Virus record (IMG/VR): IMGVR_UViG_3300030107_004269
Location: 1-37,701 of that record
Length of the DNA: 37,701 bases
Origin: a virus
Direction: 5' to 3' (one strand)
How positions within the stretch are numbered: the stretch's first letter is position 1; each line of letters starts with the position of its first letter. The translations under genes were made by a program, and so were the position numbers. The notes under the pieces were generated by a model, which saw nothing but the letters and a program-made list of their open reading frames with translations, was not told the origin of the DNA and did no database searches. Of the stretch, positions 3,452 through 37,701 are shown piece by piece.

Positions 3452-3883
3452 ATGGGATTTAAACTAGGAACAGAGAGAGGTAACTATGCCGTAAGTGGTG
3501 AAGTTAAGACTAAAATGAGATTTCACCAAAACTCTGGAGAACCAGATGTGTCTGTGCCTGGAACACCTGTTATTAGAAAAGACTTAGGACCTAATATAGG
3601 TGGAGAGGCTAATATGGATGGAAGTATATATCTTAGTAATAAAATAAAGCCAGGTAGTTTTGAAGAAGGACAAATAATAAGTCATGAAATGAGACATGCT
3701 ACTGACATGCAAATAGGTAAATTAGCATATACTGATGATTATATAAAGTATAATGGAGAAACTTTTCCAAGAAAAACTATAAACGGTAAAGATATGATAT
3801 ATTGTGATGGAGAATGGAAAGAGGCTGGTAGTCATGATTTTCCTTGGGAAAACGAAGCAAATAACGGAAATGGAGATATTTAA
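3452..3883 (+). CDS. Zincin-like small metallopeptidase candidate
   Basis: 143 aa. The central helix IISHEMRHATDM carries an HExxH zinc-binding motif (H78, E79, H82). Downstream acidic residues in PWENEA (E133, E135) could supply a third ligand, as in gluzincins. Between them are short beta-type strands (DDYIKYNGETF, GKDMIYCDGEW). There is no signal peptide or membrane segment. It lies between a small basic protein and two small membrane proteins including a holin, so a role in lysis or cell-envelope degradation is possible; a maturation protease is the alternative, since no prohead protease is recognised elsewhere in the window. Zinc ligation is inferred from the motif only. Confidence 0.6.
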   Translation: MGFKLGTERGNYAVSGEVKTKMRFHQNSGEPDVSVPGTPVIRKDLGPNIGGEANMDGSIYLSNKIKPGSFEEGQIISHEMRHATDMQIGKLAYTDDYIKYNGETFPRKTINGKDMIYCDGEWKEAGSHDFPWENEANNGNGDI

Positions 3884-6620: not shown

Positions 6621-6840
6621 AGAACTTATAAAAGTGGCTAAAGAGGCTATTGTAGATTCTGATGATGATATATCAGCTGATAGATTAAAAAATGCTGCGG
6701 CAACTAAAAAACTAGCTATATTTGATGCATTTGAAATATTGAAAAGAATACAAGAAGAAAATAATATTTTAGAAGGCAAAGATCCTGAAGAAAAAAAAGA
6801 AAGAGTTTTTAAAGGATTTGCAGAAGGAAGATCAAAATGA
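6565..6840 (+). CDS. Terminase small subunit candidate (TerS)
   Basis: 91 aa, almost all helical: KETKKRIIQAGHKAVEELIKV, then a DSDDDISADRLKNAAATKKLAI segment and a helix DAFEILKRIQEE, ending in charged residues. It lies directly upstream of TerL with a 4-base ATGA overlap, the usual place and size for a small subunit that recognises DNA and hands it to TerL. The start at 6565 is inside the preceding gene (56-base overlap) but is preceded by a G-free A/T-rich stretch like other starts here. A TTG at 6618 is a weaker alternative. The TerS call rests mainly on position. Confidence 0.6.
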   Translation: MNIKETKKRIIQAGHKAVEELIKVAKEAIVDSDDDISADRLKNAAATKKLAIFDAFEILKRIQEENNILEGKDPEEKKERVFKGFAEGRSK

Positions 6841-9056
6841 GTTATAAGCAAACATTAGTTAAAACAATTGAACCTGTTAAACGTACGACTATAACTCGTA
6901 TGAATAGAGGTAAAAAATGGAAATACGGTTATAATAAAGAACACGATATTATTGTTATATCGAAAACTGGTCAAATAGGAGAAATACTTGAAATTCAAAA
7001 CTTAAAAATAGCTTTACCTAAAACTCCTAAAGAAGTATATAAACATAAGAAAAACAAATGGGTAAAACAAGAATATCCTAAAGAATTAAGTAGAATTAAA
7101 AATATTTTTGATTGGAGAAATTATCCAAACGAAAATAAAGAACAGTGGTTTGATTATATAGACGAAGAATTTAAAAGAAGAGACGAAGGGTTTTGGTTTA
7201 TAAACAAGGATAAACCAGTTTATATAGTAGGAACACACTACATGTATCTACAGTGGAGCAAAATTGATGTAGGTGCACCAGATTATAGGGAAGCAAACAG
7301 ATTGTTTTATATATTTTGGGAGGCTTGTAAAGCTGACAGAAGATGTTATGGAATGTGTTATCTTAAAAATAGACGTTCCGGATTTTCTTTTATGTCGTCT
7401 GCTGAAACGGTAAACCTAGCTACTCTTGCTGGTGATGCTAGATATGGTATACTGTCTAAAACAGGTGCTGATGCTAAAAAAATGTTTACCGATAAAGTTG
7501 TACCAATTAGTATAAATTATCCATTCTTTTTTAAACCGATTCAAGACGGTATGGATCGACCTAAGACAGAGCTAGCATATAGAGTGCCTGCTAGTAAATT
7601 TACAAGAAAGAAAATAACATCTAATGAAAAACTAGAAGAGTTAGAAGGATTAGACACAACTATAGATTGGAAGAACACAGGAGACAATAGTTATGATGGT
7701 GAAAAACTAAATCTACTTGTACACGATGAAAGTGGTAAATGGGAAAGACCTGATAATATACTAAATAACTGGAGAGTAACAAAAACTTGTTTAAGATTAG
7801 GTAGTAGAATAGTTGGTAAATGTATGATGGGCTCAACCTCTAATGCCTTAGACAAAGGAGGGGATAACTTTAAAAAACTATACAATGCATCCGATGTTAC
7901 AAAACGAAACAGAAATGGACAGACAGCGTCTGGGCTATATTCTCTTTTTATCCCAATGGAATGGAACTACGAAGGATTTATTGACGAATTCGGTGTTCCA
8001 GTATTTAGTAATCCAGACCATGATGTCTTCGATCCTCACGGAGAATTAATAGATATAGGTGTTGTTGACCACTGGCAGAATGAAGCTGATGGGCTAAAAA
8101 GTGATCAAGATGCTTTAAATGAATTTTATAGACAATTTCCAAGAACTGAAGAACACGCGTTTAGAGATGAAGCTCAAAATAGTATATTTAACCTTATAAA
8201 AATATATGAGCAAATAGATTATAACGAAGAAATGTCTAGTACTTTAGGAATTACAACTGGTAATTTTCAATGGGTAAATGGTGTTAAAGATACGCAAGTT
8301 ATATTCTATCCAGATAAAAAAGGTAGATTTAAAATTAGTTGGGTTCCACCCCAACATTTGCAAAATAAAGTGGTACTTAAAAATGGTATTAAATATCCTG
8401 GTAATGAACATATGGGGGCCTTTGGTTGCGACTCATATGATATATCAGGAACCGTAGATGGTGTAGGTTCTAAAGGAGCTCTTCATGGTCTTACAAAGTT
8501 TAGTATGGAGGACGCTCCGGCCAATAGTTTCTTTTTAGAATACCTATCAAGACCACCTACGGCTGAAATATTTTTCGAAGATATGTTAATGGCAATAGTT
8601 TTTTATGGAATGCCTATATTAGCGGAAAATAATAAACCTAGATTATTGTATTATCTAAGAAGAAGAGGTTATAGAGGTTTTAGTATGAATAGACCAGATA
8701 AAGTTTGGAATAAATTATCTGTAGCAGAAAAAGAAGTTGGAGGTATACCAAATTCCAGTGAAGATATAAAACAAGCCCATGCTGCTGCGATTGAAATGTA
8801 TATACAAGAGCATGTTGGTATGAAACAAGATGGTTCATTTGGAGATCTATATTTTAATACACTATTAAATGATTGGGCTAGATTTGACATAACAAAAAGA
8901 ACAAAATTTGATGCAACTATAAGTTCTGGATTAGCTATAATGGCTAATAATAGGCATTTGTATGCTCCAAACGCAAAAATTGAAAAACCTAAATTAAACA
9001 TAAACATATCAAAGTATAAAAATACTGGAAATATGTCTCAAATAATTAAAAATTAA
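6837..9056 (+). CDS. terL: Terminase large subunit (TerL)
   Basis: 739 aa, the packaging motor ATPase and headful/end nuclease. The ATPase part shows a degenerate Walker A, LKNRRSGFSF (residues 176-185), with RRSGFS in place of GxxGK[ST]; a Walker B, LLVHDE (293-298); and a coupling motif GSTSN (332-336). The linker has the TerL-typical FYRQFPRTEEHAF (430-442). In the nuclease part, acidic residues fit the RNase H-like site: D532 in FGCDSYD, E597 in ILAENN, and an aspartate cluster in NDWARFDITKRTKFDAT near the end. The 4-base overlap with the TerS candidate and the portal gene 2 bases downstream confirm the packaging module. It is longer than many TerLs owing to an N-terminal extension of about 100 residues. 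Confidence 0.93.
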   Translation: MSYKQTLVKTIEPVKRTTITRMNRGKKWKYGYNKEHDIIVISKTGQIGEILEIQNLKIALPKTPKEVYKHKKNKWVKQEYPKELSRIKNIFDWRNYPNENKEQWFDYIDEEFKRRDEGFWFINKDKPVYIVGTHYMYLQWSKIDVGAPDYREANRLFYIFWEACKADRRCYGMCYLKNRRSGFSFMSSAETVNLATLAGDARYGILSKTGADAKKMFTDKVVPISINYPFFFKPIQDGMDRPKTELAYRVPASKFTRKKITSNEKLEELEGLDTTIDWKNTGDNSYDGEKLNLLVHDESGKWERPDNILNNWRVTKTCLRLGSRIVGKCMMGSTSNALDKGGDNFKKLYNASDVTKRNRNGQTASGLYSLFIPMEWNYEGFIDEFGVPVFSNPDHDVFDPHGELIDIGVVDHWQNEADGLKSDQDALNEFYRQFPRTEEHAFRDEAQNSIFNLIKIYEQIDYNEEMSSTLGITTGNFQWVNGVKDTQVIFYPDKKGRFKISWVPPQHLQNKVVLKNGIKYPGNEHMGAFGCDSYDISGTVDGVGSKGALHGLTKFSMEDAPANSFFLEYLSRPPTAEIFFEDMLMAIVFYGMPILAENNKPRLLYYLRRRGYRGFSMNRPDKVWNKLSVAEKEVGGIPNSSEDIKQAHAAAIEMYIQEHVGMKQDGSFGDLYFNTLLNDWARFDITKRTKFDATISSGLAIMANNRHLYAPNAKIEKPKLNINISKYKNTGNMSQIIKN

Positions 9057-9058
9057 AT

Positions 9059-11479
9059 ATGGCAGAGTCTGTTATAAAAAGTTATTTTCCTAGTCAAGCT
9101 GTTAGCGATGCAGAGAAGTTGAGCTATGAGTACGGTTTAAAAGTAGGTAAAGCTATTCAACAAGAATGGTTTAACAATGACAATAGTCATGATAGATACT
9201 TAAATAACCTAAACAATTTTCATAAACTTAGATTGTACGCTAGAGGCGAGCAATCTATTCAAAAATACAAGGATGAGTTATCAATAAATGGTGATTTGTC
9301 CTATTTAAATTTAGATTGGAAACCAGTTCCAATTATACCTAAATTTGTAGATATAGTAGTTAACGGTATGTCTGAAAGAATGTATGATATAAAGGCGTAT
9401 TCTCAAGATCCATACGGAGTGATGCAAAGAACTCAATATATGGAGGCTATGGCTAGTGATATGAGAATGAAGACTTTTAACGATATGGTCTTAGATGATT
9501 TTAATGTTGATTTGTACAAAACGGATCAAAGATTTTTACCAGAAACAACAGAAGAGTTAGAACTTCATATGCAATTAACATACAAACAGTCTGTTGAATT
9601 AGCACAAGAACAAGCTTTAAATGTTTTGTTTGATGGAAATAACTATGAAGCTATTAGAAGAAGAGTGCACTATGACTTAACTGTTCTTGGAATAGCGGCT
9701 GTAAAAACTTCTTTTAATACTTCAGAAGGCGCTACTATAGATTATGTTGATCCTGCAAATTTAGTTTATTCTTATACTGACTCTCCTTATTTTGAAGATA
9801 TATATTATGTTGGTGAAGTAAAATCCGTACCTATTAATGAATTAGCGAAAGAGTTTCCTTTTTTAACAGAAAGTGACATACATGAAATACTTCAAAATAG
9901 AAGTAACATGAAAAATAATTATAACAATATTCATATAACAAATAAAGACGATAAAAACACTGTACAAATACTTTATTTTAATTATAAAACTTATATGAAT
10001 GAGGTTTATAAAATGAAAGAAACTTCTACTGGTGGTATGAAAGCTATAATGAAAGATGATACTTTTGATCCTCCAAAAGAAAAAGAAGGTGAATATTCTA
10101 GGTTATTAAGGTCTATAGAATGTTTATATGATGGGGCTATGATTTTAGGTACAAATAAATTACTTAAGTGGGAAATGGCAAAAAACATGATACGCCCTAA
10201 AAGTGATTTTACTAAAGTTAAAATGAACTATAGCATAGTAGCTCCTAGAATGTATAATGGTAAAATAGAATCTTTAGTTAGTAGAATAACTGGTTTTGCT
10301 GATATGATTCAATTAACGCATTTAAAACTACAACAAGTATTAGGTCGTATGGTGCCAGATGGCGTATATTTAGATGCAGATGGTCTTGCTGAAATAGATT
10401 TAGGTAACGGAACAAATTATAGTCCTCAAGAAGCGTTGAATATGTTTTTCCAAACTGGATCTGTTATAGGTAGATCGTTTACCTCAGAAGGTGATATGAA
10501 TCCTGGCAAAGTACCTATACAGGAAATAACTAGTGGTAGTGGTGGTAATAAATTGCAAGCGCTTATAGGTAATTATAATTATTATTTACAAATGATAAGA
10601 GATACTACCGGACTAAACGAGGCTAGAGATGGTACTATGCCGGATAAAAACGCTTTAGTTGGAGTTCAAAAACTAGCCGCAGCAAATAGTAATACAGCAA
10701 CAAGACATTTATTACAATCAGCTTTGTTTTTAACAGCTGAAACTGCAGAATGTTTATCTTTAAGAGTATCAGATATATTAGAGTACTCACCAACAGCTGA
10801 TGCGTTTATTCAACAAGTTGGCGTTCATAATGTTGCTACATTAGAAGAAATATCTAATCTTCATTTATATGATTTTGGTATATTTATAGAACTTCAACCA
10901 GACGAAGAAGAAAAAATGATGTTAGAAAATAACATACAAGTCGCTTTATCTAAAGAAAATATAGAGTTGGAAGACGCTATTGATATTAGAGAAATTAAAA
11001 ATATTAAATTAGCTAACCAATTGCTTAAAATACGTAGAAAGAAAAAGCAAGATAGAGATCAAATGATACAACAGCAAAACATTCAATTGCAATCTCAAGC
11101 TAATATACAAGCTCAACAAGCTGCAACTCAATTAGAGATGCAAAAGCAAGAAGCTAAAACCATGCAAGAAGGTACGTTGGAACAAATCAAAGCTCAACTT
11201 GATACACAAAAAATGGAGCAAGAGGTTAATTTCAAAAAAGAATTAATGGCGTTAGAATTTCAATATAACATGCAACTTAAAGAATTAGAAAATCAAACCG
11301 CTAATAATAAAGAAAAAGAAAAAGAAGATCGTAAAGACGAAAGAACAAGAATACAAGCAACTCAACAAAGTGAGTTAATTGATCAAAGAAATAATGCAAA
11401 AGCACCTAAAAACTTTGAATCTACAAGTAATGATATTATTAGTGGAGAATTTGGATTAGGAGCCTTTGATCCTAGATAA
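9059..11479 (+). CDS. Portal protein
   Basis: 806 aa, the dodecameric ring through which DNA enters and leaves the head. It follows TerL and precedes the scaffold-like and capsid genes. The N-terminal part contains DWKPVPIIPKFVDIVVNGMS and AYSQDPYGVMQRTQYMEAMA, of the kind seen in portals of crAss-like and related phages, then a wing/stem region with DYVDPANLVYSY and an RDTTGLNEARDG segment near residue 520. Residues ~659-780 are a Gln/Lys/Glu-rich coiled coil (barrel/crown extension). It is translated from an ATG two bases after the TerL stop. The portal call rests on size, order and pattern; no catalytic motif is expected. Confidence 0.88.
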   Translation: MAESVIKSYFPSQAVSDAEKLSYEYGLKVGKAIQQEWFNNDNSHDRYLNNLNNFHKLRLYARGEQSIQKYKDELSINGDLSYLNLDWKPVPIIPKFVDIVVNGMSERMYDIKAYSQDPYGVMQRTQYMEAMASDMRMKTFNDMVLDDFNVDLYKTDQRFLPETTEELELHMQLTYKQSVELAQEQALNVLFDGNNYEAIRRRVHYDLTVLGIAAVKTSFNTSEGATIDYVDPANLVYSYTDSPYFEDIYYVGEVKSVPINELAKEFPFLTESDIHEILQNRSNMKNNYNNIHITNKDDKNTVQILYFNYKTYMNEVYKMKETSTGGMKAIMKDDTFDPPKEKEGEYSRLLRSIECLYDGAMILGTNKLLKWEMAKNMIRPKSDFTKVKMNYSIVAPRMYNGKIESLVSRITGFADMIQLTHLKLQQVLGRMVPDGVYLDADGLAEIDLGNGTNYSPQEALNMFFQTGSVIGRSFTSEGDMNPGKVPIQEITSGSGGNKLQALIGNYNYYLQMIRDTTGLNEARDGTMPDKNALVGVQKLAAANSNTATRHLLQSALFLTAETAECLSLRVSDILEYSPTADAFIQQVGVHNVATLEEISNLHLYDFGIFIELQPDEEEKMMLENNIQVALSKENIELEDAIDIREIKNIKLANQLLKIRRKKKQDRDQMIQQQNIQLQSQANIQAQQAATQLEMQKQEAKTMQEGTLEQIKAQLDTQKMEQEVNFKKELMALEFQYNMQLKELENQTANNKEKEKEDRKDERTRIQATQQSELIDQRNNAKAPKNFESTSNDIISGEFGLGAFDPR

Positions 11480-12788: not shown

Positions 12789-14339
12789 ATGGCAATTACT
12801 GCAGGAGGTATTTTGAATAGCACGCCAGCTACGGCAAAGGCAACGTTATCTACAAACTACCTAGATCTTGCGACATCTGCGGGAGCAGGTTGGGCGCAAC
12901 AATATGTACCAGACCTAATGGAAAAAGAAGCTGAAGTTTTCGGACCGAGAACTATTTCAGGATTTCTTTCACAAGTTGGGGCTGAAGAGGCTATGACAGC
13001 TGATCAAGTTGTATGGTCTGAACAAGGTAGATTACATCTATCTTATAAAGGGAATGTAAAATCAGGACAAGCTGCTGGTGGTACTGTAGTATCTGGTGGT
13101 ATTATCGAAATCACTCATGACATCGATGGTAACGCAGTTACTGACGGTGAAGATGGTATTAGAGTTAACGATACTGTTATCATCGCTAGTGCTAGTGGAG
13201 TTGTTAAAGCTTTAGTAACAGAATCTAATGTTACATCTGGTGAATTTGAAGTTGCTCCTTATGGTGTAGCTTCTTTAAACGCTGCTGGTATTACTGAGAC
13301 AAGTTCTCAATCACTTACTATATTAGTTTATGGTTCTGAATTCCAAAAAGGTAGAAGTTACAATACTAACGCTAATGTTGGTAATGATGGTACTGCTACT
13401 GATCAAAGAGGTGCAAACGAACCTTCATTCAAGTCTTTCATGAACAAACCAATTATTATGAAAGATTACTACGAAGTTTCAGGTTCTGACGCTTCTAGAG
13501 TTGGTTGGGTTGAAGTTTCTGCTGAAGATGGTACTTCTGGATACTTATGGTATTTAAAAGCTGCATCTGATACAAGAGCTCGATTCACTGATTATTTAGA
13601 AATGGCGATGTTAGAAGCAAAAATGGGAGGTGGTTCTAATGCTGGTGCTACTGGTCATCCAGTTGTATCTGCTGCTGATTTAACTGACGATGCTTTTGAT
13701 TTAACTGCTGACACAGCTACGGGTACTCAAGGTTTATTTGATGCTATTGAGTCTAGAGGTAATTTATCTTCTGGTGTTACTGGTGGTGGTTCTGATTTAG
13801 CTGAATTTGATGCTATCTTAGCTGAGTTTGACAAGCAAGGTGCTATTGAAGAAAACATGATGTTCTTAAACAGAGCAACTTCACTTAATGTTGATGATAT
13901 GTTAGCTTCAATGAATTCTTACGGAGCTGGTGGTACTTCTTACGGAGTATTTGATAACTCTGCTGATATGGCACTTAATTTAGGTTTTACTGGTTTCAGA
14001 AGAGGTTCTTATGACTTCTACAAATCTGATTTCAGATACTTAAATGATTTAGCTACTAGAGGTGGTATTAACGCTGCTTACACTGCTGGCGCGATCAGAG
14101 GAGTTATTATTCCTGCTGGTGTGTCTTCTGTTTACGATCAAACTGTTGGAGCTAATATGAGACGTCCGTTCTTACACGTACGTTATAGAGCTTCTCAAAC
14201 TGATGATAGAAGAATGAAATCTTGGGTTACTGGTTCGGTTGGAGCTGCTACATCTGCTTTAGATGCAATGCAACTACACATGTTAACTGAAAGATGTTTA
14301 ATTACGCAAGGGGCAAATAACTTTATGTTATTTAACTAA
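12789..14339 (+). CDS. Major capsid protein
   Basis: 516 aa, presumably HK97-fold. The case rests on position (after portal and scaffold-like genes, followed by a strong terminator), size, and codon bias: ACT, GCT, GGT and TCT dominate and ATA is nearly absent, as expected for the most abundant product. The N-terminal helix region has AGWAQQYVPDLMEKEAEVFG (34-53). Residues ~98-185 look like an inserted beta domain (VVSGGIIEITHDIDG ... RVNDTVIIASASGVVKALV ... SLTILVYG). Later segments (FTDYLEMAMLEAKMGGGS, FLNRATSLNVDDMLASMNSYG, MRRPFLHVRYRASQ) resemble capsid spine-helix and P-domain elements. A G-free leader (CAAATTTAAAAAAACAAAATT) precedes the start. No prohead protease is visible nearby. 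Confidence 0.85.
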   Translation: MAITAGGILNSTPATAKATLSTNYLDLATSAGAGWAQQYVPDLMEKEAEVFGPRTISGFLSQVGAEEAMTADQVVWSEQGRLHLSYKGNVKSGQAAGGTVVSGGIIEITHDIDGNAVTDGEDGIRVNDTVIIASASGVVKALVTESNVTSGEFEVAPYGVASLNAAGITETSSQSLTILVYGSEFQKGRSYNTNANVGNDGTATDQRGANEPSFKSFMNKPIIMKDYYEVSGSDASRVGWVEVSAEDGTSGYLWYLKAASDTRARFTDYLEMAMLEAKMGGGSNAGATGHPVVSAADLTDDAFDLTADTATGTQGLFDAIESRGNLSSGVTGGGSDLAEFDAILAEFDKQGAIEENMMFLNRATSLNVDDMLASMNSYGAGGTSYGVFDNSADMALNLGFTGFRRGSYDFYKSDFRYLNDLATRGGINAAYTAGAIRGVIIPAGVSSVYDQTVGANMRRPFLHVRYRASQTDDRRMKSWVTGSVGAATSALDAMQLHMLTERCLITQGANNFMLFN

Positions 14340-25900: not shown

Positions 25901-26390
25901 TATTGATTTAACACGGGGATACCCACAATTAGTTGCAAATGGTGTAACTTCTGTACCAGTAGTTTTTATGCTAGGTAATTGGCATCCTAGTTATTGTAGT
26001 CTTCCTTATGGACCAGAACAGGAAATAACAGAAAACGCATTTAACGCGCCCTCTTCGGGAACAGTACATCAAGGGGCTAACTATGGTGTGCCATCATTAG
26101 TTAATGCTTTAGAAGTTGTGAGTAATAACGACTTAGTTATTGCCGCGCAATCTCAATCAGTTTACACTTTGTCATTTACTAGTAATATTGATCAATCATG
26201 GGTTACTAATACAGCATCAACAATAACTGGGTTGGTTGCTGACGCGTTGATAATGCTTCAAATATTACATGATGATCATACAAATGGAGAGATATATATA
26301 AATGACATTAGAGTTACTTGTCAAGGTGGTAGTTCTCCTAATCTTAGACCAGGCGGTGGTAGTAGTAAAAGAATAACACAAAGACTATAA
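22920..26390 (+). CDS. Receptor-binding/tail adhesin with Bacteroidota-type cysteine modules
   Basis: 1156 aa. The N-terminal ~180 residues look like a virion-attachment domain (LSFSESVRGWTSFKSFIPQS, SNVKSFKTLEYEGSQSKIEE, KYGWYVDNIKTDLQ). A central beta-rich region follows. Residues 671-~770 hold cysteine-rich modules: GCTDPLALNF...DDGSC (671-691), WDCDGQGNC...STLAACQAAC (696-724), GCTLPSAVNY...DDGSC (730-750) and a degenerate WCTDPAADNYEEIC. These resemble modules in large secreted proteins of marine Bacteroidota. Residues ~810-1030 are unusually Trp/Tyr-rich (SWWSSPWFASG, ITAWWGQL, TAWYYSWG), suggesting glycan binding. The C-terminus is RPGGGSSKRITQRL. Order after the muzzle gene supports a tail fibre or spike. 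Receptor specificity is unknown. Confidence 0.72.
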   Translation: MATSIATNNQRNTLIKPEDNLQIGKPVTLSFSESVRGWTSFKSFIPQSGVSLSGEYYTFDNGTPYMHNSETVSMNTFYNVSYESSVSVVLNDLTSNVKSFKTLEYEGSQSKIEEFITEIKDGVRYNDGEYYNLTHKYGWYVDNIKTDLQEGKVPEFINKEGKWYNYIKGENSTKLPGQLNGVINKLDSREFSFQGLGYAGDVDYVGPIINKYLLIGDWIDSSTSTTEWQDMVSVLNDWNSGAVVAPWQDHIPYEDTDNSSDPFTIQGNLTLNLPQNVMQTSLKRSIYVIPKTDAAGNLEELSAHFLSVNRMHLQSTSMAPWFGVAQNYTITTAGIPSPHGNGYTEYKIVPTSDYHGLGYNYFHKLGWPIHLTTQHEDIVITEINVKEIYNDINIDTYPKSIEIELTLSEFQLDSMRDVYGNGTPASNKYIPVDVDYYPIDLPQSLITFAVELDQIPLSGSYNSTSGQFHALGPDSSTSNDFKFTFYDSANSPVIDYNHLIQTTLPSIIANSPVNNKPTIGIFPAMDPGVPINAGVFLGTSFKTNCESYADTSPDIVDAIFTEQLKATPNQLSVDQNPSGPSYVTNGYNWNCNDSTQPIGVTYPPNQSSGLDLLRELSVSACSGGANASQSTDILNNNIRTIPFILPPFDVVVDMGKIYHDLTNTPFANVYGCTDPLALNFNALATIDDGSCIYPSWDCDGQGNCSDPLDGTGAYSTLAACQAACVVPIPGCTLPSAVNYDSTATVDDGSCYWNWCTDPAADNYEEICNNVTTLAQVMSYGGFGSLVSLNACCNYSTPPCVNPTFNFVGTLPSGVTAIIDANDSGIGIDVDMSNTNYEQISWWSSPWFASGQQTTPYNWYEITAWWGQLVGNNTIQNSGGTLIPQTFDKWYDTAWYYSWGNTVPLFPNWQGFTSQLNGMMSWYDKSEDNVYFWSGNSIMWQMEFDGGIGDFDPGTSLGIANNLVGAQAKTAGIATKINLGPDWTNYINTYTIEIDIDLTRGYPQLVANGVTSVPVVFMLGNWHPSYCSLPYGPEQEITENAFNAPSSGTVHQGANYGVPSLVNALEVVSNNDLVIAAQSQSVYTLSFTSNIDQSWVTNTASTITGLVADALIMLQILHDDHTNGEIYINDIRVTCQGGSSPNLRPGGGSSKRITQRL
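24930..25235 (+). repeat. In-gene GCTDP...DDGSC cysteine-module repeats
   Basis: Three related units at the protein level. Unit 1 (24930-24992) and unit 2 (25107-25169) each run from a GCT(D/L)P start through (L/V)N(F/Y)(N/D) and AT(I/V)DDGSC. Unit 3 (from about 25179) starts WCTDPAADNYEE and is degenerate. Between units 1 and 2 lies another cysteine pattern, CDGQGNC...CQAAC. DNA identity between units is partial, so duplication is old or the units were acquired together. Confidence 0.75.
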
Positions 26391-28828: not shown

Positions 28829-29662
28829 ATGACAAAAAAGAAAAAAAATATTGGTTATCGAGTTAGTCCTTTAAAAGGTAGATGGGGATGGACTAGTAAA
28901 GATACTTCTGGCGCTGATACTACTCGGCTCGATGAGTTAAAAGGAGAGTTTACGAGATATGATATGAAAAATTTGTACGGTGATGTAAAAAATCCATATG
29001 CAGACATACAAACAAATTTTGAAAATGTATACGAGGATTTAACAATAAATCAAAAACAATTTGAATTACAAAGAGAATTTTATCAGCAATCCCAAGCTAC
29101 TACACTTCAGAAAATGCAAGAACTTGGTATGGTAAATGTTCAAGCTTTGCAAAATCAAGCCCAAACACAAGCTCAAACTGCAAGCGCAACTATAGGTGAT
29201 CAAGAGGCTCAAAATGTTAGATTAAAAGCTCAAGGGGCTAGTCGAGTGCAAGCAATGGAAAGAGAGGCTGAAATGAAAATAGCTCAAGGCGCATGGACTG
29301 CTGATCAAGCTAGAAGAGCTGGGGCTACAGATGCTAGAAATTTAGAATTACAAAAAATACAAGGATTAATGGCTATTGAAGCTGGTGAAATTCAATCATT
29401 AAGACAGGCTGAGGCAGCTAATAGAAACTTCCTTCAACAAATACTTAGCGATAGAAGATTAAAGAAAAATATAGAATTAATTGGTCAATCTCCAAGTGGA
29501 ATCAATATATATAACTTTGAATATAAAAATCCAATTCATGGTGAAGGACTTTACCAAGGAGTTATGTCAGATGATATTCCGCAAAAAGCAGTTATTAATA
29601 CTGGCATGGGTTATGATATGGTTGATTATAGTCAAATTGACGTAAAATTTAGAAAAATATAA
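28829..29662 (+). CDS. Coiled-coil virion protein with C-terminal S74-like domain
   Basis: 277 aa. A basic start (MTKKKKNIGYRVSPLKGRWG) is followed by a long helical region at ~45-205 rich in Gln and Ala (VQALQNQAQTQAQTASATIG), likely a trimeric coiled coil. Residues 207-277 are a short S74-type intramolecular chaperone-like segment: SDRRLKKNIELIGQSPSGIN, then NIYNFEYKN, GEGLYQGVMSDDIPQKAVI and a closing DYSQIDVKF. In endosialidases and T5-type fibres such domains trimerise the protein and then cleave themselves off at a Ser just before the domain. Here S207 is the likely counterpart, but cleavage is not proven. Position before the 524-aa and giant proteins allows an internal virion/ejection role instead of a fibre. 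Confidence 0.7.
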   Translation: MTKKKKNIGYRVSPLKGRWGWTSKDTSGADTTRLDELKGEFTRYDMKNLYGDVKNPYADIQTNFENVYEDLTINQKQFELQREFYQQSQATTLQKMQELGMVNVQALQNQAQTQAQTASATIGDQEAQNVRLKAQGASRVQAMEREAEMKIAQGAWTADQARRAGATDARNLELQKIQGLMAIEAGEIQSLRQAEAANRNFLQQILSDRRLKKNIELIGQSPSGINIYNFEYKNPIHGEGLYQGVMSDDIPQKAVINTGMGYDMVDYSQIDVKFRKI

Positions 29663-29664
29663 TT

Positions 29665-31239
29665 ATGGCAGTAATAGACGTTAACGCATTATATAAAATA
29701 GGTGTTGCAAGAAACGCAAGACCATCCATGCAACCTCAGTTGTTTCCTATAATAGGAAAAATATTAGGTGGGTTTGCAGTAGATTTACTTCACGATGCTT
29801 GGGAAATGAAAAAGAGTCATCTTAAAACGTTTGATGAAAACGCTATTGGGGTTGACACTCCTATTAAAGATAAAGAAGGAAATGTATTGCCTGAATTAAA
29901 CGCTCATATGAAAGAGCAAGAAGTGAATTTTTTAAGTAATGCTCGTGACGAAGTAGAAGAATCAGATTGGGGCGCAACATTTGCTATAAAAGACGAAAAA
30001 AGAAGAAAAAATAAATCTAATATTAGAAATACGGGTAATTCTGTTAGAAATTATAAGAGTCAAAAGTCAATATATACTATAGGAAAAGCTAACGCGCGTG
30101 AAAGAGTTAGCCAATCTAATACAAACTTAGGGGCTCATAATGAAATGAGTACAATTCATTTTGATACCATGCTTGGTACTGGTGCTTTAGATAACTACAT
30201 GGTAACAACTGAAACAGGTGATATGGTTCTTTCTAGCGAATTAATAACTAACCGTATGACTGAAATTCAAAACCAAATGCTTGGTATGAATCAAACAACT
30301 CCTGAATATGAAGAGTTGAGAAAACTAAACGGTTCATTAAGTAAATTAATGACCAATACTATGGATGGCAAAGATCTTCCTTTAAAAAGCTTTCCAATTG
30401 GAAAAGAAAACGAATCTAATGTTATATTAAATTATAGAAAAGATTCTAAAAAGCTAATGGAAAAATATGGAAAAATTACAACAACAGGTGTGTTTAACGG
30501 AACTCAAGTCCAAACCGAATCACAAAACTATTGGAGTTCTGCTTTAAGAGGTGATTATGCTAGTGAGGAAGAAAAAAATAATTGGGATAATAAAATTACT
30601 AGTATGTGGTTTCAACAGGTTGATTCTAAAACGCCATCACCAGCGCATAACTATATTACCGGCAAGCATTATATTGGTGGAGTGGAAATGGAGGCATTAC
30701 CAGATCCTTTTGCTTCAGACGCAGACCAAACAGACGCAAACAATGATGGTGTAATAGATGTATTAGAAACATATATGGGTAGAATGGAATTACTTAAAAA
30801 AGAAAACTTAACTACTGGTCATAACCTTTCGTTTTTAGAAAATTATTTTGTTGAAGAAGACAAGAAAACATTTAAATATGTATCTGAAAATGCTCTATAT
30901 GAAGATCCTAATAAAAATACATATAAATTCCAAGGATGGGAAAAAGAACATATATCTAGAGCCAATTCAATAAATGCTATTGTTGAAAAAGAAGGTGCTA
31001 TTACTCTTAAAAACTTACAAACACTAACTCTTGATAGTAACAAATCAATTATTGAAGAAGATGGTAAAATTATAGTAAAAGATAGTCAAGGATATTTATT
31101 AGATATAATTGACCCTAAGAATCCTATGGAAGTTAGAAACATACTATATAGACATGGTGGTGTAGACGATAGGTTTAGAACTAAAAGTGATATAATATTT
31201 GATAAAAATGATCAAGGAAGTTCAAGAATTAACCCATAA
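29665..31239 (+). CDS. Putative internal virion/ejection protein with EF-hand-like loop
   Basis: 524 aa, no family recognised. The N-terminus has a hydrophobic stretch (LFPIIGKILGGFAVDLL, ~26-42) that could be an amphipathic or membrane-active helix. The middle is charged and helical. Residues 357-368 read DANNDGVIDVLE, matching the 12-residue EF-hand calcium loop exactly (D1, N3, D5, G6, I8, E12). It stands 2 bases after the S74-tailed gene and 2 bases before the giant gene, a place where podovirus-type phages encode proteins ejected with DNA. No signal peptide or catalytic motif is seen. The ejection role is inferred from position only. Confidence 0.58.
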   Translation: MAVIDVNALYKIGVARNARPSMQPQLFPIIGKILGGFAVDLLHDAWEMKKSHLKTFDENAIGVDTPIKDKEGNVLPELNAHMKEQEVNFLSNARDEVEESDWGATFAIKDEKRRKNKSNIRNTGNSVRNYKSQKSIYTIGKANARERVSQSNTNLGAHNEMSTIHFDTMLGTGALDNYMVTTETGDMVLSSELITNRMTEIQNQMLGMNQTTPEYEELRKLNGSLSKLMTNTMDGKDLPLKSFPIGKENESNVILNYRKDSKKLMEKYGKITTTGVFNGTQVQTESQNYWSSALRGDYASEEEKNNWDNKITSMWFQQVDSKTPSPAHNYITGKHYIGGVEMEALPDPFASDADQTDANNDGVIDVLETYMGRMELLKKENLTTGHNLSFLENYFVEEDKKTFKYVSENALYEDPNKNTYKFQGWEKEHISRANSINAIVEKEGAITLKNLQTLTLDSNKSIIEEDGKIIVKDSQGYLLDIIDPKNPMEVRNILYRHGGVDDRFRTKSDIIFDKNDQGSSRINP

Positions 31240-31241
31240 AT

Positions 31242-34200
31242 ATGAGTGATTTAACAACAGAATTAAAAGATTATGTTCAAACGGCAAATGATCCTGCCGC
31301 TACCACAAACGGTCAAGTAGACTGGAATTTGGTTAATTCCCATTTTCCATTACTTAAAGATTATAATCAAGGATTATTAAAAGATTATGTTAAAGAGGTA
31401 AAAAAATCTAATCCCACAACTGAAAGAGATTGGAATAATCTTAATACTCAATTTCCTGAGTTTTTTGAAAAACCTATTGAGAGCACAATAACGACTAAAC
31501 CTAAAACTGGGGAAGAAGTAGTAAAATCATTGTTTGAATTACAAGATAGTGTTAATAGAAGAGATAGCTTTGTAAAAAAAAGAGCTGCTGATGAATATTT
31601 TATGACAGATGATCTGGAAAAAAATATTAACAAGTGGATGGACGATAATAATAAGTCAACATTCAAAACAGAATGGTTGGGGAATACTTCTAGACAAGTA
31701 AGACAGCCATATACAGAAAAGGATTTAATGGAGTTTTTTGGAAATAAAAAATACCAAGAATATATAAATTGGAAGAAAAACGGCGAGCTACCTTTTGATA
31801 ATGATGATTTTGACAAAATTGTAAGTCAACAAGTTGCAGAGCGACAAAAAGAAGTTCAACAGCATTACTTGAGAGACCTTGATAATATTGTGTTACAAAA
31901 AGAGGCTTTAATTATGATGCCTGATATTTTTGGCACTAATTTGAACTTAACGGAAGAAGCAATGAGGTCTAGCGATGAGATAGAGTTTGAACAACTTTAT
32001 GGTAGACCGTTAGTTAGAAGAGAATACAAGAAGGGTAAAAATGGTAGATATAAAACGTTTATACCTACTCAAAGAACAGATGATTATCATTCTCCCGACT
32101 CACCTGATCTTCAATTAAACCCGCAAAAATACGACAAAATTTTAAAGCTGCAAGAAGATTGGTTAAAAACGTCCATGAACACTTATAAAAAAAGTGTAAA
32201 CACTTATAACGATAAAGTAACTAATTTTACTATTAAAAATCAAAAGTATGTTGATGAACTTGCAAAATTAGACAAAGAAATTGAAGAGCTTGGAGATATA
32301 AACGCTGACACGTCTTTAGAGGTTAGACAAAAATATCTAGAATTAGCAAATCAGTATAATGGTGTAATTTCAAGAATTAAAGAAAGTGGATTAGATGATT
32401 TAAGACTTGAGGTTATAGATTTAAGCAAATCTTTAGAAACTAGATTTGACGATTTAATGGATAAATCAGAAAAATATAACAATATAGTAATGGCTACTGA
32501 AGCGTTAAATCTTAATTATAATTGGAGTGCTAGATTTTTGTTACAAATTGAAAATTTCTTTTCTGATATGAAAGTGTTAGGTACTTCAATACCGGCTGGT
32601 ATATCAGAGCTTACAGAAAAAATAATTTGGAATGTTGATGATGGAGCGGAAAGTGAATTTTATAGATACATGCAGCAAAATTATAAGGCAGCTATAAATT
32701 ATAGTGAGAGTGTTAAAAATAGAATACAAAGTGAATTGCCTAAATCGATTACATGGGAAACTAAAGGGGGTAATCTAGGCGCATATATGGCAGATATGCT
32801 TGCTAATAATTCGATGAGTATTATGACGGCTATAGCGTCTGGTGGGGTAGGAAGTATTGCTACAAAAGGAATGAGTAGGGCTGGCGCTATGCAAGTAAGA
32901 AAAAGAATTGCCAATAAGACTACTGGAATATTTTTTGGTATGGAATCTGGTTCTAAACTAGCAGATATAGAAATATCTAAAAAGAATGCCCCAAAGCATT
33001 TGAAGGATTTAAAAAAATTATATGAAAACGCACAAACTCCTGCTGAAAAATATGAGCTTTTACGTTTAATAGATCAACAAGAAGCTGCGCTTAGTGTAAA
33101 TGGGTTTGAAAAGGCGTTCTCAACAATAGCTTATGGTGGAATTGCTGCTTATGCTGAAAGACTAGGTACACTAAACTATGTGCATGGATTAAGTCGTTGG
33201 AGTAGAATCGGGGCAATGCAAGGTCCAGTGTGGAAAAAGGGATTATATGGCACGGGTAATACAATGTTTAACATGGGTATTGAGTGGCTTGAAGAAACTG
33301 GTACTATGTTAGGTCATAACTTTATTGATATAGTTGTATTAGATGAGGACAAAAGTCTTGTAGATGGTATTGATATGGAGTTTACAGCAAATGTACTATT
33401 CTCTTCTTTAGCAATACAAGGACCTACTATGGGTATGAATTCTTATAGTGCTATAAATAGTGCAGTTTCAAGTAGAAAAGATAGAAAAAAATCCAATTCG
33501 CTAGCTAAAGAATTGATAGATATACAAGAAACTCTTACTACCAATACTAATTTAAAACCAGCACAACGTAAAGAACTTGTTCAAAGAAAACGAGATATAT
33601 TAAAAGAAGCTTCATTACAAAACTCTTACAGCTTGATGCGTGTGGCTAGAATGAAACCTCAAGAAATAAGAGACATGTTCGAGATAAATAGAGAGAACAG
33701 AAAAGATCTTAAGACTTTAAGAGAGTTAGGCATGTCTGGTGAAAGTGTGCAAGGCGCTGAAAGTTTAAAACAAGAAATTGTTAATAGAATAGAAGAAAGA
33801 AATAGAAAAAAAGAAACTTTATTATCTAAACCGGCGCAGAGAAGAAGAGCAAAACTACAAGCTGCTGGAGCAAAAATAGATTTACAAAATAAAGCAAAAG
33901 TATCAAAAGAAGGTGAAGTTACTATCGAGCAAGAAGGTACTGGAGAATATTTTAATGCTGAAACTGATTATTGGTTAGCTAGATCTGAGTATAATGAAGA
34001 TGTTGTAAGAGCTTTAGGGGATAATTTACAAAAATTTGAAGGTGATAACGCAAGAGAAAACTATAAAAATTATTTAGAAAAACAAAACTTACCTCAAGAA
34101 GAAATTCAAAAAGCTTTAAATGAATTTGATCAAGGTGCTTATGGGGCTAACATAGGGAACTCTCCAATTCTATTTGGAGACAATATATTAAGAGGGATAA

Positions 34201-37200
34201 TAAATGGTGGATTTGAAGCTAAAATGGCTGCTGCAACAGCTCTTCATGAAGCTCAGCACGTAAAAAATAAGCAATCTGGCTTAGTAAAAAATGGTTATGT
34301 AGTTGATTCAGCAAAAAGAGCTGTTGAAGAAATACGAAATAGAATAAATGAATTAGGTTTAGACGAAGACACTAGAAAGGGAATAGAAAATAGAATAGCC
34401 GCATACGACGGTATGACTGAGGTTAATTTAGAAGAATTAATTAATCTAGCAGGAGATTTGAAAGATGCTGGAATAATGAGTAGAGAATCTTTACCATTAG
34501 CTTTTGCATTTAAATCTTTATTAAACTCAACTATAAATCTTTTTAGAAAAGACAAAGACATGTACTTTATGCTTGAAACTGTAGATGAAGTTCTACAGTA
34601 TATTGATAGTTTCCAACAAAAAGCTAAAGCAGGAGGTATAGCGTTGCCACCAGAAGAAGAAGCTAAAGAAGGACCAGTAAAACAATCTCTTACTGCTGAA
34701 GAAATAGCTGAAAAAGAAGAACGTGTAAATGAATTAGGTAGAATGGGTTGGAATAATGAAACTTGGAAGTCTACTGGTGCTGATTTTGCAATGGAAACTA
34801 TGAAGACTGAAAAACTACTTGATGCTTTAATTTATTCTAAATACAAAGCAGATCAAGTTCCTAGTAACTTTGTTGATTTAGTTTACTCTGAATTAACACC
34901 TGATGTGCAAAAGTTTAACGAAGATTTATGGGGAACAGAACAAGAAAATGATAGTTTATTTGGTTACTTAATGGGTAGACTTCAGTTCAGGGCAGATCAA
35001 GTTTATAATAGAGAGTTTAAAAAAGATGAAAAACCAACGGTACGTTTAGACGAGAAAACTAAAGAAGGTGAAATAAAAAGAGATATAGCCTCTACAGATT
35101 TAACACCTGAAGAGCAAATGATAGCTAAAGAAGAAGCGGCTAAAAAAGCTAAAACTCAAAAGACAGACAAACAAAAAAGAGACACCTTTCTTAAGCGAGT
35201 AGGTTTTGACAATAAAGTTAAACAAAAAATTATAGACTCTGTAGTAAAAACATTTGGTACTAAATTACCAGCTGTAACTTCTAAACAGTTTAGGTTAGCA
35301 TTGCAAAGGGCTTTTGAAACTGAATTAAAAAATGTTATACAAAAAGAATTTGGTATAGGTAAAAATTATGATCTATTCTTAAAAACATTATTCCCAACCG
35401 TATTTAAAAGATTAACACCTGAACAATTAACTCAAATAGAAAGAAGAGTTCCTAAGGACAAAAAAATATTTTCTACTAGAAGAAGAATAACTAAAAAAGC
35501 AGAAGTTGAGCAACTGCAAAATGAAGGTTTAATTGCTATGGACGTAGATTATAAAACAGGTCCTTGGTTGTCAACTAAAATGAAAACGCCTAGTATAAAA
35601 CAAACAATGGCATTTTTTAGAGGTAAAAACATGCAAGAGGTTTTAGGTTATACTGTTAGCAAATCTGCATTTGGTACTAGAAAAGACGCTTTAGCAGAAG
35701 CACTTGCCGTGGAGCTAGCTTTTGATAGTGCTATGGAAGTATTAAATGATCCTAAAATTTTAGAAAGAAGACAGGATATAGAGACTTTACAAGGTAGAGA
35801 AAAAGCAGAGAATTACGTTGTTGAAGCTGCTCAAAAAATACGTAGAGATCCTAACATAAAACTCAGTAGAGCTGTTGACAATAATGCTAGTGATAGATCT
35901 TGGAAGTTATTTATAGGGAATAGATCTGAATTTTTAAATAAAATAAGCGAGTATGGCTATTCTAAACAAGCTATAAAAAGAGCTTACGACGAGGTGTACA
36001 AACCTTTAAATTTAAAAACAAAAGAAGGTAAATCTTTAAGAACTGTTGTTGTAAATAGTTATAGTAAAATAATAAATCCTTTTCTTAAAATAAATGAAAG
36101 ATATAAAAAAGGTCAACAAGAGTTTCCTCAAACATTAGAAGAGTATGTTTCAACGGTAGACTTAGCTGACGCTGAAATACAAGTAGCTATATATTTTAAG
36201 TTAGACCAAGCTATGACTGATTTGTTTAAAAATCCAACTCAGAAAAAACAGTATCAAGAATTTTTAACAGATATAGCGCTTAACATAAAAGAAAAAAACA
36301 ACTTATCTAACCAAGAGTTGGCTATAATGTTGTTAAGAGCTCAAAGTCATATGGAAAATGGAACTAATAATCCAAGACGTTCTATGGCTTTTTATAAAAA
36401 CGAAGGATTTGCAAAAGGAATGTTATCGTTAGTATATCCGGGTATAGAAACTTATAAAAAACATAAAGGTAAAGTAACTATATTGGGTAAAAAAGGAAAA
36501 GTATTAGATACATTTAATATACCTGTAGAACCAACCCAAGGTGTTACACAAGACATGATTGACAATAGTGTGTCAAAAGAAGAAAAAGCCGCGAGAAAAG
36601 AATCATCAGATTTTCATTGGAATTATTTAAATATGTTTCTTGAAGAAGCTTCTTCTTTAGTTAAAAATAAACAAAGTAAATATTCTAAAAACGAAATGGC
36701 TATGTTAGCTGCTGGATTTTTAGGTAATATGAAAACATCTTTAAGAGCTAGTGCTTTGTTTAAGTATGCAGTACTAAATCCTTTTGATAAAAACCACAAA
36801 AACTACGAATACGAGCATGGTATACCAGCTTTAGTAATGATGATGCATTTATTAGATCATCACTTTGCTGGAAAAAAAGTGGATTTAGGTAAGTTAAAAG
36901 AAAGTTATGCGGTTGGCGCTATTCATGACGATATGAATACTAACTTAGGTGTTGTGTTTAAAAAGAGAATGCACTTTGATTACAAACTGTATGACATGGC
37001 CCCTAAAAGATGGTATAATATATACACGGCCGCTGGAGCAACACACGCTGTTGTGGATATATACAATGGAAATAAGTTTGGAGAAATTCAAGCCAAATCT
37101 TGGAAAGATATTAAAAAGCTTAAAGATGAGTTAGATAATAAGCAAGTTAAGGAAAATAAAAAACTAAGCAATGCTATTCTTGAAGGTAGAAAAACAGTAA

Positions 37201-37701
37201 AATCAAGTAAAGGAATTACTGTTTTAGATTTTGACGATACTTTAGCTACTACCGAATCGCTAGTAGGATATACTGCTCCAGACGGCACAACTGGAACGTT
37301 AAATGCTGAGCAGTATGCTAATACATATCAAGATTTACAAGCACAAGGTTATACTTTTGATTTTTCAGAATTTAACAAAGTTGTTGGTGGTAAAATAGCC
37401 CCGTTGTTTAAAAAAGCTTTAAAACTACAAGGTAAGTTTGGATCAAAAAGCATGTTTGTATTAACAGCTAGGCCACCACAAGCTCAAAAAGCTATATATG
37501 ATTTTTTAAGGGCAAACGGTTTAAATATACCATTAAAAAATATCACTGGCCTTGGTAATTCTACAGCTGAAGCTAAAGCATTGTGGATAGCTGATAAAGT
37601 TGGTGAAGGGTTTAATGACTTTTACTTTGCTGACGATGCGTTGCAAAATGTACAGGCTGTTAAAAATATGCTAGATCAATTTGATGTTAAGTCAAAAGTT
37701 C
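31242..37701 (+). CDS. Giant multidomain virion protein (zincin + HAD), 3' end cut by window
   Basis: Open from the ATG at 31242 to the window edge, at least 2153 aa; the stop is not in view. Residues 8-38 and 46-75 are a tandem repeat (LKDYV...DWNxLNxxFP). Residues ~100-330 are helical. Weakly hydrophobic stretches near 520-720 (MSIMTAIASGGVGS, STIAYGGIAAYAE) could contact membranes. A metallopeptidase-like motif ALHEAQHVKNKQSG puts H1002, E1003 and H1006 in an HExxH array. A Lys/Glu-rich helical section follows, and EYEHGIPALVMMMHLL near 1857. The last ~160 residues are a HAD-type phosphatase/hydrolase domain: VLDFDDT (D1996, D1998), VLTARP (T2075) and FADDALQN (D2131, D2132). Such giant 'polyvalent' proteins are often packed in the virion and injected. 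Which activities are live is unknown. Confidence 0.82.
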   Translation, partial: MSDLTTELKDYVQTANDPAATTNGQVDWNLVNSHFPLLKDYNQGLLKDYVKEVKKSNPTTERDWNNLNTQFPEFFEKPIESTITTKPKTGEEVVKSLFELQDSVNRRDSFVKKRAADEYFMTDDLEKNINKWMDDNNKSTFKTEWLGNTSRQVRQPYTEKDLMEFFGNKKYQEYINWKKNGELPFDNDDFDKIVSQQVAERQKEVQQHYLRDLDNIVLQKEALIMMPDIFGTNLNLTEEAMRSSDEIEFEQLYGRPLVRREYKKGKNGRYKTFIPTQRTDDYHSPDSPDLQLNPQKYDKILKLQEDWLKTSMNTYKKSVNTYNDKVTNFTIKNQKYVDELAKLDKEIEELGDINADTSLEVRQKYLELANQYNGVISRIKESGLDDLRLEVIDLSKSLETRFDDLMDKSEKYNNIVMATEALNLNYNWSARFLLQIENFFSDMKVLGTSIPAGISELTEKIIWNVDDGAESEFYRYMQQNYKAAINYSESVKNRIQSELPKSITWETKGGNLGAYMADMLANNSMSIMTAIASGGVGSIATKGMSRAGAMQVRKRIANKTTGIFFGMESGSKLADIEISKKNAPKHLKDLKKLYENAQTPAEKYELLRLIDQQEAALSVNGFEKAFSTIAYGGIAAYAERLGTLNYVHGLSRWSRIGAMQGPVWKKGLYGTGNTMFNMGIEWLEETGTMLGHNFIDIVVLDEDKSLVDGIDMEFTANVLFSSLAIQGPTMGMNSYSAINSAVSSRKDRKKSNSLAKELIDIQETLTTNTNLKPAQRKELVQRKRDILKEASLQNSYSLMRVARMKPQEIRDMFEINRENRKDLKTLRELGMSGESVQGAESLKQEIVNRIEERNRKKETLLSKPAQRRRAKLQAAGAKIDLQNKAKVSKEGEVTIEQEGTGEYFNAETDYWLARSEYNEDVVRALGDNLQKFEGDNARENYKNYLEKQNLPQEEIQKALNEFDQGAYGANIGNSPILFGDNILRGIINGGFEAKMAAATALHEAQHVKNKQSGLVKNGYVVDSAKRAVEEIRNRINELGLDEDTRKGIENRIAAYDGMTEVNLEELINLAGDLKDAGIMSRESLPLAFAFKSLLNSTINLFRKDKDMYFMLETVDEVLQYIDSFQQKAKAGGIALPPEEEAKEGPVKQSLTAEEIAEKEERVNELGRMGWNNETWKSTGADFAMETMKTEKLLDALIYSKYKADQVPSNFVDLVYSELTPDVQKFNEDLWGTEQENDSLFGYLMGRLQFRADQVYNREFKKDEKPTVRLDEKTKEGEIKRDIASTDLTPEEQMIAKEEAAKKAKTQKTDKQKRDTFLKRVGFDNKVKQKIIDSVVKTFGTKLPAVTSKQFRLALQRAFETELKNVIQKEFGIGKNYDLFLKTLFPTVFKRLTPEQLTQIERRVPKDKKIFSTRRRITKKAEVEQLQNEGLIAMDVDYKTGPWLSTKMKTPSIKQTMAFFRGKNMQEVLGYTVSKSAFGTRKDALAEALAVELAFDSAMEVLNDPKILERRQDIETLQGREKAENYVVEAAQKIRRDPNIKLSRAVDNNASDRSWKLFIGNRSEFLNKISEYGYSKQAIKRAYDEVYKPLNLKTKEGKSLRTVVVNSYSKIINPFLKINERYKKGQQEFPQTLEEYVSTVDLADAEIQVAIYFKLDQAMTDLFKNPTQKKQYQEFLTDIALNIKEKNNLSNQELAIMLLRAQSHMENGTNNPRRSMAFYKNEGFAKGMLSLVYPGIETYKKHKGKVTILGKKGKVLDTFNIPVEPTQGVTQDMIDNSVSKEEKAARKESSDFHWNYLNMFLEEASSLVKNKQSKYSKNEMAMLAAGFLGNMKTSLRASALFKYAVLNPFDKNHKNYEYEHGIPALVMMMHLLDHHFAGKKVDLGKLKESYAVGAIHDDMNTNLGVVFKKRMHFDYKLYDMAPKRWYNIYTAAGATHAVVDIYNGNKFGEIQAKSWKDIKKLKDELDNKQVKENKKLSNAILEGRKTVKSSKGITVLDFDDTLATTESLVGYTAPDGTTGTLNAEQYANTYQDLQAQGYTFDFSEFNKVVGGKIAPLFKKALKLQGKFGSKSMFVLTARPPQAQKAIYDFLRANGLNIPLKNITGLGNSTAEAKALWIADKVGEGFNDFYFADDALQNVQAVKNMLDQFDVKSKV

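Follow-up and report, generated by a model that had tools for sequence, protein, structure and literature searches.

Does a virus that joins a zincin-like peptidase motif and a HAD phosphatase-like domain in one giant chain deliver both activities into the cell with its DNA, and on what would the phosphatase act? The question is raised by the last open frame of the window, by which we mean the whole 37,701-nucleotide stretch analyzed (IMG/VR record IMGVR_UViG_3300030107_004269). The reading that we prefer, with a probability of roughly 0.45, is that the giant protein is packaged cargo carrying an accessory, virion-delivered phosphatase that heals 3'-phosphate nucleic-acid ends.

Genomic context of the giant frame

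The source is probably a marine phage whose host belongs to the phylum Bacteroidota. The genome is that of a podovirus related to Pachyviridae/Elemovirus, and the giant gene closes its structural block.

6837..9056, + strand: large terminase (phrog_6681; PHROG match)
9059..11479, + strand: portal protein (phrog_6547; PHROG match; position of phi18:3 gp99)
12789..14339, + strand: head protein (phrog_13704), probable major capsid protein (position of phi18:3 gp104)
28829..29662, + strand: virion structural protein (phrog_6121; position of phi18:3 gp120)
29665..31239, + strand: 524-aa protein directly upstream of the giant frame (placed by synteny only)
31242..37701, + strand: giant open frame, last gene of the structural block (at least 2153 aa, truncated at the contig end)

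The giant frame reads through 2153 aa to the contig end without a stop codon, confirming the initial annotation's minimum length for a single chain; complete relatives in the first set collected are 2032-3387 aa long. The virion structural protein at 28829..29662 has a homologue in 44 of 80 relatives. The 524-aa protein occupies the gene-order slot of the MS/MS-detected phi18:3 gp121 and gave no sequence match.

The whole giant protein matched nothing over cut-off in Pfam, PHROGs or NCBIfam, and tblastn of this HAD-bearing giant protein and of its relative L002 returned zero matches among the 50,697 phage records searched. Whole-chain patterns from P0001 retrieved no relatives because the upstream modules shuffle, and a segment seeded from relative L062 was discarded after it drifted to other positions. 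Relatives of the HAD domain itself comprised 300 viral-contig stretches in one scan and at least 583 in a second. The membrane-like stretches reported earlier were not recovered in a hydropathy analysis of this protein, in which no span of 19 residues reaches a Kyte-Doolittle value of 1.3.

A conserved zincin-like peptidase domain

34164..34631, + strand: zincin-like peptidase domain, aa ~975-1130 (alignment of 121 relatives)
34245..34259, + strand: HEAQH, aa 1002-1006 (H1002 99%, E1003 98%, H1006 100% conserved)
34404..34406, + strand: Y1055 (94% conserved, same alignment)
34434..34436, + strand: E1065, probable third zinc ligand (100% conserved)

The zincin motif HEAQH noted in the initial annotation keeps its alignment position in over 100 relatives; conservation of its residues and of E1065 was scored over the 121 relatives plus the window. 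Composition predicts only 0.014 HEXXH occurrences in the giant protein, so that HEAQH is not a chance match. By analogy with zincin architecture, E1065 is probably the third metal ligand of the peptidase. A PDB fold search across this stretch had no zincin among its matches, a result that says little given the low confidence of the model in this region.

The HAD catalytic site is complete and conserved

37206..37701, + strand: HAD phosphatase domain, essentially complete, aa 1989-2153 (motifs, fold, conservation)
37227..37241, + strand: motif I DFDDT, aa 1996-2000 (D1996, D1998; 114/114)
37461..37475, + strand: motif II LTARP, aa 2074-2078 (T2075, R2077; 114/114)
37575..37577, + strand: motif III lysine K2112 (114/114)
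37632..37637, + strand: motif IV D2131 and D2132, within FADD, aa 2129-2132 (114/114)

No part of the giant protein is as well conserved as the HAD domain, which is retained as upstream modules shuffle and, in the C-terminal alignment of relatives, is better conserved than the regions that flank it. D1996, D1998, T2000, T2075, R2077, K2112, D2131 and D2132 are identical in all 114 uninterrupted HAD domains, the motif II-to-IV spacing is 52 residues in 155 of 155 scored, and the median dN/dS of the region is 0.14 (4028 pairs, non-independent). The domain thus has the DxD, S/T, K and acidic motif IV of the HAD superfamily together with a Rossmann-like fold. The catalytic set had been described as near-complete; DFDDT, LTARP and FADD are confirmed, and K2112, as motif III, makes the set complete. 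HAD chemistry is well supported, and the sequence conservation suggests that the domain is quite probably catalytically active.

Nearest families and probable substrate

In a VIA-align comparison, the four chains closest to the HAD domain were those of Pnkp1 (Z 10.9) and the T4 Pnkp 3'-phosphatase (10.8, 10.5 and 10.3), with the next at 9.8, so that the Pnkp chains led other folds by 0.5-1.1 Z; Foldseek against the PDB gave no significant match (best E 0.04). The HAD alignment matched eight phage Pnkp phosphatases in hhalign with a probability of 91.9 and motifs I-IV in register, and the HAD profile scored probabilities of 45 with T4 Pnkp, 16 with AphA, 0.6 with HisB and 0.4 with SerB as single proteins. 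By fold and profile, the domain appears closest to the T4 Pnkp and bacterial Pnkp1 3'-phosphatases, with two family-specific residues missing. These are the arginine after motif I and that of the DDR at motif IV, which are invariant in the eight phage Pnkp sequences and absent from the window HAD and its relatives; we therefore do not file the domain as a T4 Pnkp-type member. Like the giant proteins of some relatives, T4 Pnkp and Capnocytophaga Pnkp1 have a kinase-like partner domain. In those free enzymes, however, kinase and phosphatase are arranged in tandem; the HAD domain here sits inside a cargo chain, and the kinase of relatives is nested in the cap or lies elsewhere in the chain. A nucleic-acid end is our tentative choice of target. 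The earlier suggestion that the HAD might act on nucleotides can stand if nucleic acids are included, as both the closest folds and the kinase inserts are in keeping with either kind of target. The results speak neither for nor against host signals, the other target first suggested.

The domain might instead resemble the class B/C acid phosphatases, with a broad range of nucleotide or small-molecule substrates, and be delivered to manipulate nucleotide pools or nucleotide-based alarm signals. Motif I has the DxDDT of AphA, a secreted class B enzyme, the motif II-III region aligns with it, AphA reached Z 8.1-8.3 in the fold comparison, and there are weak Pfam matches to DUF2608 (4.7e-5) and Acid_phosphat_B (0.018). 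We consider this unlikely, as the profile-profile probability with six class B acid phosphatases fell below that with Pnkp (54 versus 92) and covered only a part of the alignment. Moreover, motif IV of the window reads FADDALQN in place of the GDxDxD that is invariant in six AphA sequences, and a class B/C assignment leaves the kinase inserts unexplained. Dephosphorylation of host proteins early in infection, by the HAD as a protein phosphatase effector, is improbable: the fold comparison did return HAD effector structures (Lem4 at Z 8.7) and protein-modifying domains occur in polyvalent proteins (PMC5512222), but the effectors rank below Pnkp, and we saw no protein-kinase partner and found no sequence link.

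Inserts in the HAD cap

A polynucleotide-kinase-like P-loop domain is inserted at the HAD cap site in 31 relatives. In the second set of relatives the frequency was 31 of 79, a value biased because the query held a kinase; the kinase is absent from the window and its 80 nearest relatives. The closest solved sequences to the insert are those of the Clostridium Pnkp kinase, with the T4 kinase among others, and it also matches Zeta_toxin (Pfam). Across 50 records, all 17 AAA_33 kinases lay inside giant frames. Inserts unrelated to the kinase also occur at the cap site (an ART-like domain in relative L180; ~46 aa in 13 loci), so that kinase insertion there need not imply a shared pathway. An ATP-dependent DNA ligase is encoded in 20 of the 50 records, and RNA ligase and RtcB in none; DNA ligases are common in phages anyway. 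Seeing the HAD cap as an insertion site for whole domains also helps in understanding the evolution of polyvalent proteins.

The giant last structural proteins of phi18:3 (gp123), Pachyviridae, Pervagoviridae and Elemovirus share the position of the window's protein in the structural block. HEXXH occurs in some of them (elemoA, Manatee) and not in others, and HAD motifs were absent from all those examined. Since cultured relatives do without it, the HAD domain is dispensable. That these phages and relative L101 manage without the domain, and that its cap tolerates large inserts, would suit a HAD that has lost its enzymatic role and persists as a module for folding or packing the cargo chain. 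With every catalytic residue invariant and the domain better conserved than its flanks, such a loss of activity seems improbable.

Probable packaging and delivery

The giant last gene of the equivalent structural block in phi18:3 (Cellulophaga), gp123, is annotated 'experimental MS/MS proteomics' in the GenBank notes, from which we took this evidence. It matches HAD-bearing relatives (E 3e-16) in a module on the N-terminal side of the peptidase. Because this homologue, in the same gene order, was detected in virions, the giant chain most likely belongs to the 'polyvalent' cargo proteins that are ejected from the particle. We infer that the window's own protein is very probably packaged and, since related proteins sit inside virus particles, that the peptidase and phosphatase are probably injected with the DNA; homology and gene order lend good support to packaging and to delivery into the cell, which the initial annotation had raised conditionally. 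The same gene order and MS/MS annotation make it very improbable that the protein is unpackaged and functions in the producing cell at a late stage.

Polyvalent proteins, as described by Iyer et al. 2017 (PMC5512222), are giant, combine several unrelated activities with a zincin-like peptidase, and are predicted to enter with the DNA. The window's protein resembles them in carrying a zincin set and a HAD domain in one frame, both conserved, and, by sequence, in having an HEXXH helix with a downstream glutamate. It differs in that its most strongly conserved module is the HAD phosphatase and some relatives have a P-loop kinase in the cap; the words phosphatase, haloacid and sigma do not occur in the main text of the survey (PMC5512222).

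Proposed role in end healing

In the reading that we prefer, the multi-domain cargo protein would be packaged in the capsid and exit with the DNA, and the zincin domain would process the giant chain or cut a host protein. The HAD domain would be catalytically active and Mg-dependent, with the architecture of the 3'-phosphatase half of polynucleotide kinase-phosphatases. It would strip 3'-phosphates from the incoming DNA at nicks or breaks, or from defence-cleaved RNA, presumably ahead of phage gene expression, so that a ligase could seal the ends. Some relatives would add a 5'-kinase-like domain, usually within the HAD cap. End repair is best known from enzymes produced after infection (T4 Pnkp); if the activity is confirmed, it would join the functions of injected cargo.

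Other modules

34674..35027, + strand: possible sigma-70 region 2-like helical domain, aa ~1145-1262
35229..35876, + strand: helical module, aa 1330-1545
36609..37121, + strand: pre-HAD module 'EYEHGIPA', aa 1790-1960

Between the peptidase and the HAD domain, the model suggests a possible sigma-70 region 2-like fold. Sigma factors made up 20 of the first 21 matches in the fold search (Z 4.8-6.9, for a helical segment and below trust level), and the best matches to PDB sequences include a sigma factor in register (E ~1); the segment had no Pfam match and hhalign with RpoD gave nil. That one injected chain of marine phages unites an end-healing 3'-phosphatase (capped, in certain lineages, by a nested 5'-kinase), a self-processing protease and a sigma-like domain, and mends damaged DNA ends or defence-cut RNA before any phage gene expression, is a rather unlikely conjunction.

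Giant virion RNA polymerases of N4-like and crAss-like phages are likewise giant capsid cargo ejected with the DNA, and N4-type chains are also fused to a zincin peptidase (PMC5512222). They differ from the giant protein and its relatives, in which no polymerase motif was found: DxDxD is scattered and not conserved in relatives, and none is invariant in the C-terminal alignment. The initial annotation had envisaged an RNA polymerase beyond position 37,701; complete relatives instead continue for ~700 conserved aa past the HAD domain without an invariant DxDxD. Upstream of the HAD domain, the 'EYEHGIPA' module is present in 110 of 159 relatives, and the helical module, modeled with pLDDT mostly >90, is common to 31 of the 159.

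The giant protein and its relatives

The initial annotation described a giant protein combining a zincin motif with a HAD domain, and this protein is real: the last frame of the window is open over 2153 residues, and all four motifs were located.

31242-37701 (+), giant frame, open to the contig end, 2153 residues
aa 1002-1006, HEAQH
aa 1996, DFDDT (HAD motif I)
aa 2074, LTARP
aa 2129, FADD

The chance expectation of HEXXH in this protein, calculated from its composition, is 0.014. A search of viral contigs with the HAD region gave 300 related stretches, from which 80 loci were read as a first set; HEXXH occurs in 73 of these and in 77/79 loci of a second set. The window covers the entire IMG/VR virus record, which ends at 37,701 bases. 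Giant frames of first-set relatives that are not truncated at a contig edge span 2032-3387 aa, with 841-1303 aa downstream of HAD motif I, so that ~700 residues are probably missing from the window's protein.

When the window protein was compared by blast with the 80 loci, the HAD was the sole part common to all; each upstream part matched between one relative and a few tens, in varying combinations. It is therefore a mosaic protein, with upstream modules swapped and the HAD and C-terminus retained. Conservation also peaks in the HAD (mean majority 0.85-0.94 vs 0.44-0.75 after it), with the caution that the loci had been selected by this domain. A search with the C-terminal region gave 18 loci, 16 with a standard HAD; one of the others (L096) has a divergent HAD with DFDET, LTARA and FVDD, and one (L101) lacks the HAD yet retains HEXXH and the C-terminus. 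The HAD motif is likewise absent from the cultured relatives elemoA (Elemovirus), Manatee Spring podovirus and Cellulophaga phages phi46:3, phi18:3 and phi38:1. The HAD is thus an accessory part of the protein.

Among the loci, motif I reads DFDYT instead of DFDDT in L170, whose giant protein is otherwise normal, and the standard motif I is likewise absent from L173. HAD-bearing giant genes (L104-L111) turn up in genome bins of Maricaulis, Woesearchaeota, Ilumatobacteraceae and Aliivibrio; these are most likely wrongly binned phage contigs. GenBank calls the Manatee giant protein (L082, 741-12320), which has two HEFGH motifs, a 'reticulocyte binding/rhoptry protein'; it is almost surely a misannotated phage cargo protein.

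Packaging

The proposal that the giant protein is packaged is sound, with support from homology and gene order. In phi18:3, annotations based on experimental MS/MS proteomics cover the portal, a head protein, tail proteins, gp120, gp121 and gp123, and the genes for these stand in the same order as in the window. The gp123 of phi18:3 (1935 aa) matches 17 relatives (best E 3e-16), and phi38:1 gp101 and phi46:3 gp120 behave likewise. In polyvalent proteins, zincin peptidases are the commonest domain, ARTs also occur, and some carry a zeta-toxin-like kinase (Iyer et al. 2017, PMC5512222); the main text of that paper makes no mention of phosphatase, haloacid or sigma.

Peptidase and possible sigma-like domains

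Iterating a profile of aa 930-1140 picked up 121 of 159 relatives; in their alignment H1002, E1003, H1006 and E1065 are conserved at 98-100% and Y1055 at 94%. The resulting HEXXH-x58-E pattern is the one that a gluzincin-like site should have. A zincin fold is predicted from sequence; the model has low confidence over the peptidase stretch, and structure search with it gave no zincin match.

In a second model (aa 930-1545, mean pLDDT 80.8), sigma factors took 20 of the first 21 structure-match rows for aa ~1145-1262 (Z 4.8-6.9). Two distinct sequence families at this position, weakly alike (prob 62), each have one shared sigma factor structure among their matches, aligned in register but at E of only ~1. 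The segment had no match to RpoD and none in Pfam; a sigma-like domain here is a lead only.

The HAD phosphatase domain

No variation occurs at eight catalytic or near-catalytic positions in 114/114 HAD domains; motif spacing is fixed, and the domain is under purifying selection. With an AlphaFold model of aa 1790-2153 (mean pLDDT 76), Foldseek gave nothing significant (best E 0.04; Pnkp1 at rank 11, probability 0.93). VIA-align placed Pnkp1 at the top together with three structures of T4 Pnkp (Z 10.9-10.3; rmsd 2.5-2.6, 109-125 residues), followed by Nir2 (Z 9.8) and other HADs from 9.2. In profile comparison, eight phage Pnkp phosphatases scored highest (probability 91.9, E 7e-7, spanning motifs I to IV), above six AphA sequences (probability 54, motif II-III only), with SerB and HisB far below. 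Two arginines of Pnkp phosphatases, one following motif I and one in DDR, are lacking in the HAD here. The domain is thus predicted to work like a Pnkp phosphatase but, because those arginines are missing, is not classed as a member. Fold and domain company make nucleic-acid ends its most likely substrate.

Pnkp-type enzymes repair tRNA in the Pnkp1-Rnl-Hen1 complex of Capnocytophaga (PMC4411300) and in T4 (database record notes). Among 50 records, RtcB and RNA_ligase were found in none, with positive controls matched, whereas 20 have an ATP-dependent DNA ligase; this points weakly to DNA ends, the records being mostly fragments and phage DNA ligases common.

A P-loop domain of ~200 residues lies between HAD motifs I and II, at the C1 cap site, in 31/79 second-set loci, a frequency biased upward by the kinase-bearing query. 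Pfam assigns it to AAA_33 (2.6e-17) and Zeta_toxin (2e-13), and the nearest solved sequences are a Clostridium kinase (E 0.0018), T4 kinase (0.05) and zeta toxin (0.2). The Clostridium structure is entered as 'Metallophosphoesterase', which we take to be the Pnkp kinase. The kinase occurs in 16/50 records, all 17 copies lying inside giant frames, and in three loci (L141, L142, L143) a similar kinase is placed elsewhere in the chain. The window has no P-loop, and its HAD has a short cap. The cap site takes the kinase, an ART-like domain (in L180, as read by eye) and, in 13 loci, an insert of ~46 residues, so it serves as a general insertion site. One locus (L109) has an extra domain directly behind the HAD; from L180 and L109, the cap and rear edge look like domain-insertion sites.

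Phage and host

Matches to PHROGs head-and-packaging families identify the window's terminase and portal, one head protein and other virion proteins. The terminase is closest to Manatee Spring podovirus (64%), then Elemovirus (45%), then Cellulophaga/Tenacibaculum podoviruses (<=38%). Chaperonin genes lie at the contig start:

21-1827, GroEL (520 aa) and a small overlapping GroES-like gene in the GroES position

A GroEL and GroES-like pair is likewise present near the structural block of elemoA, and this pair and the relatedness of the phage make a Bacteroidota host likely. A small protein with HEMRH (3452-3883), with no Pfam match, is another possible short zincin. A 1156-aa protein (22920-26390) has a crAss_MUZ_C Pfam match (aa 75-169); the muzzle position itself (17519-22909) is taken by another protein, of 1796 aa.
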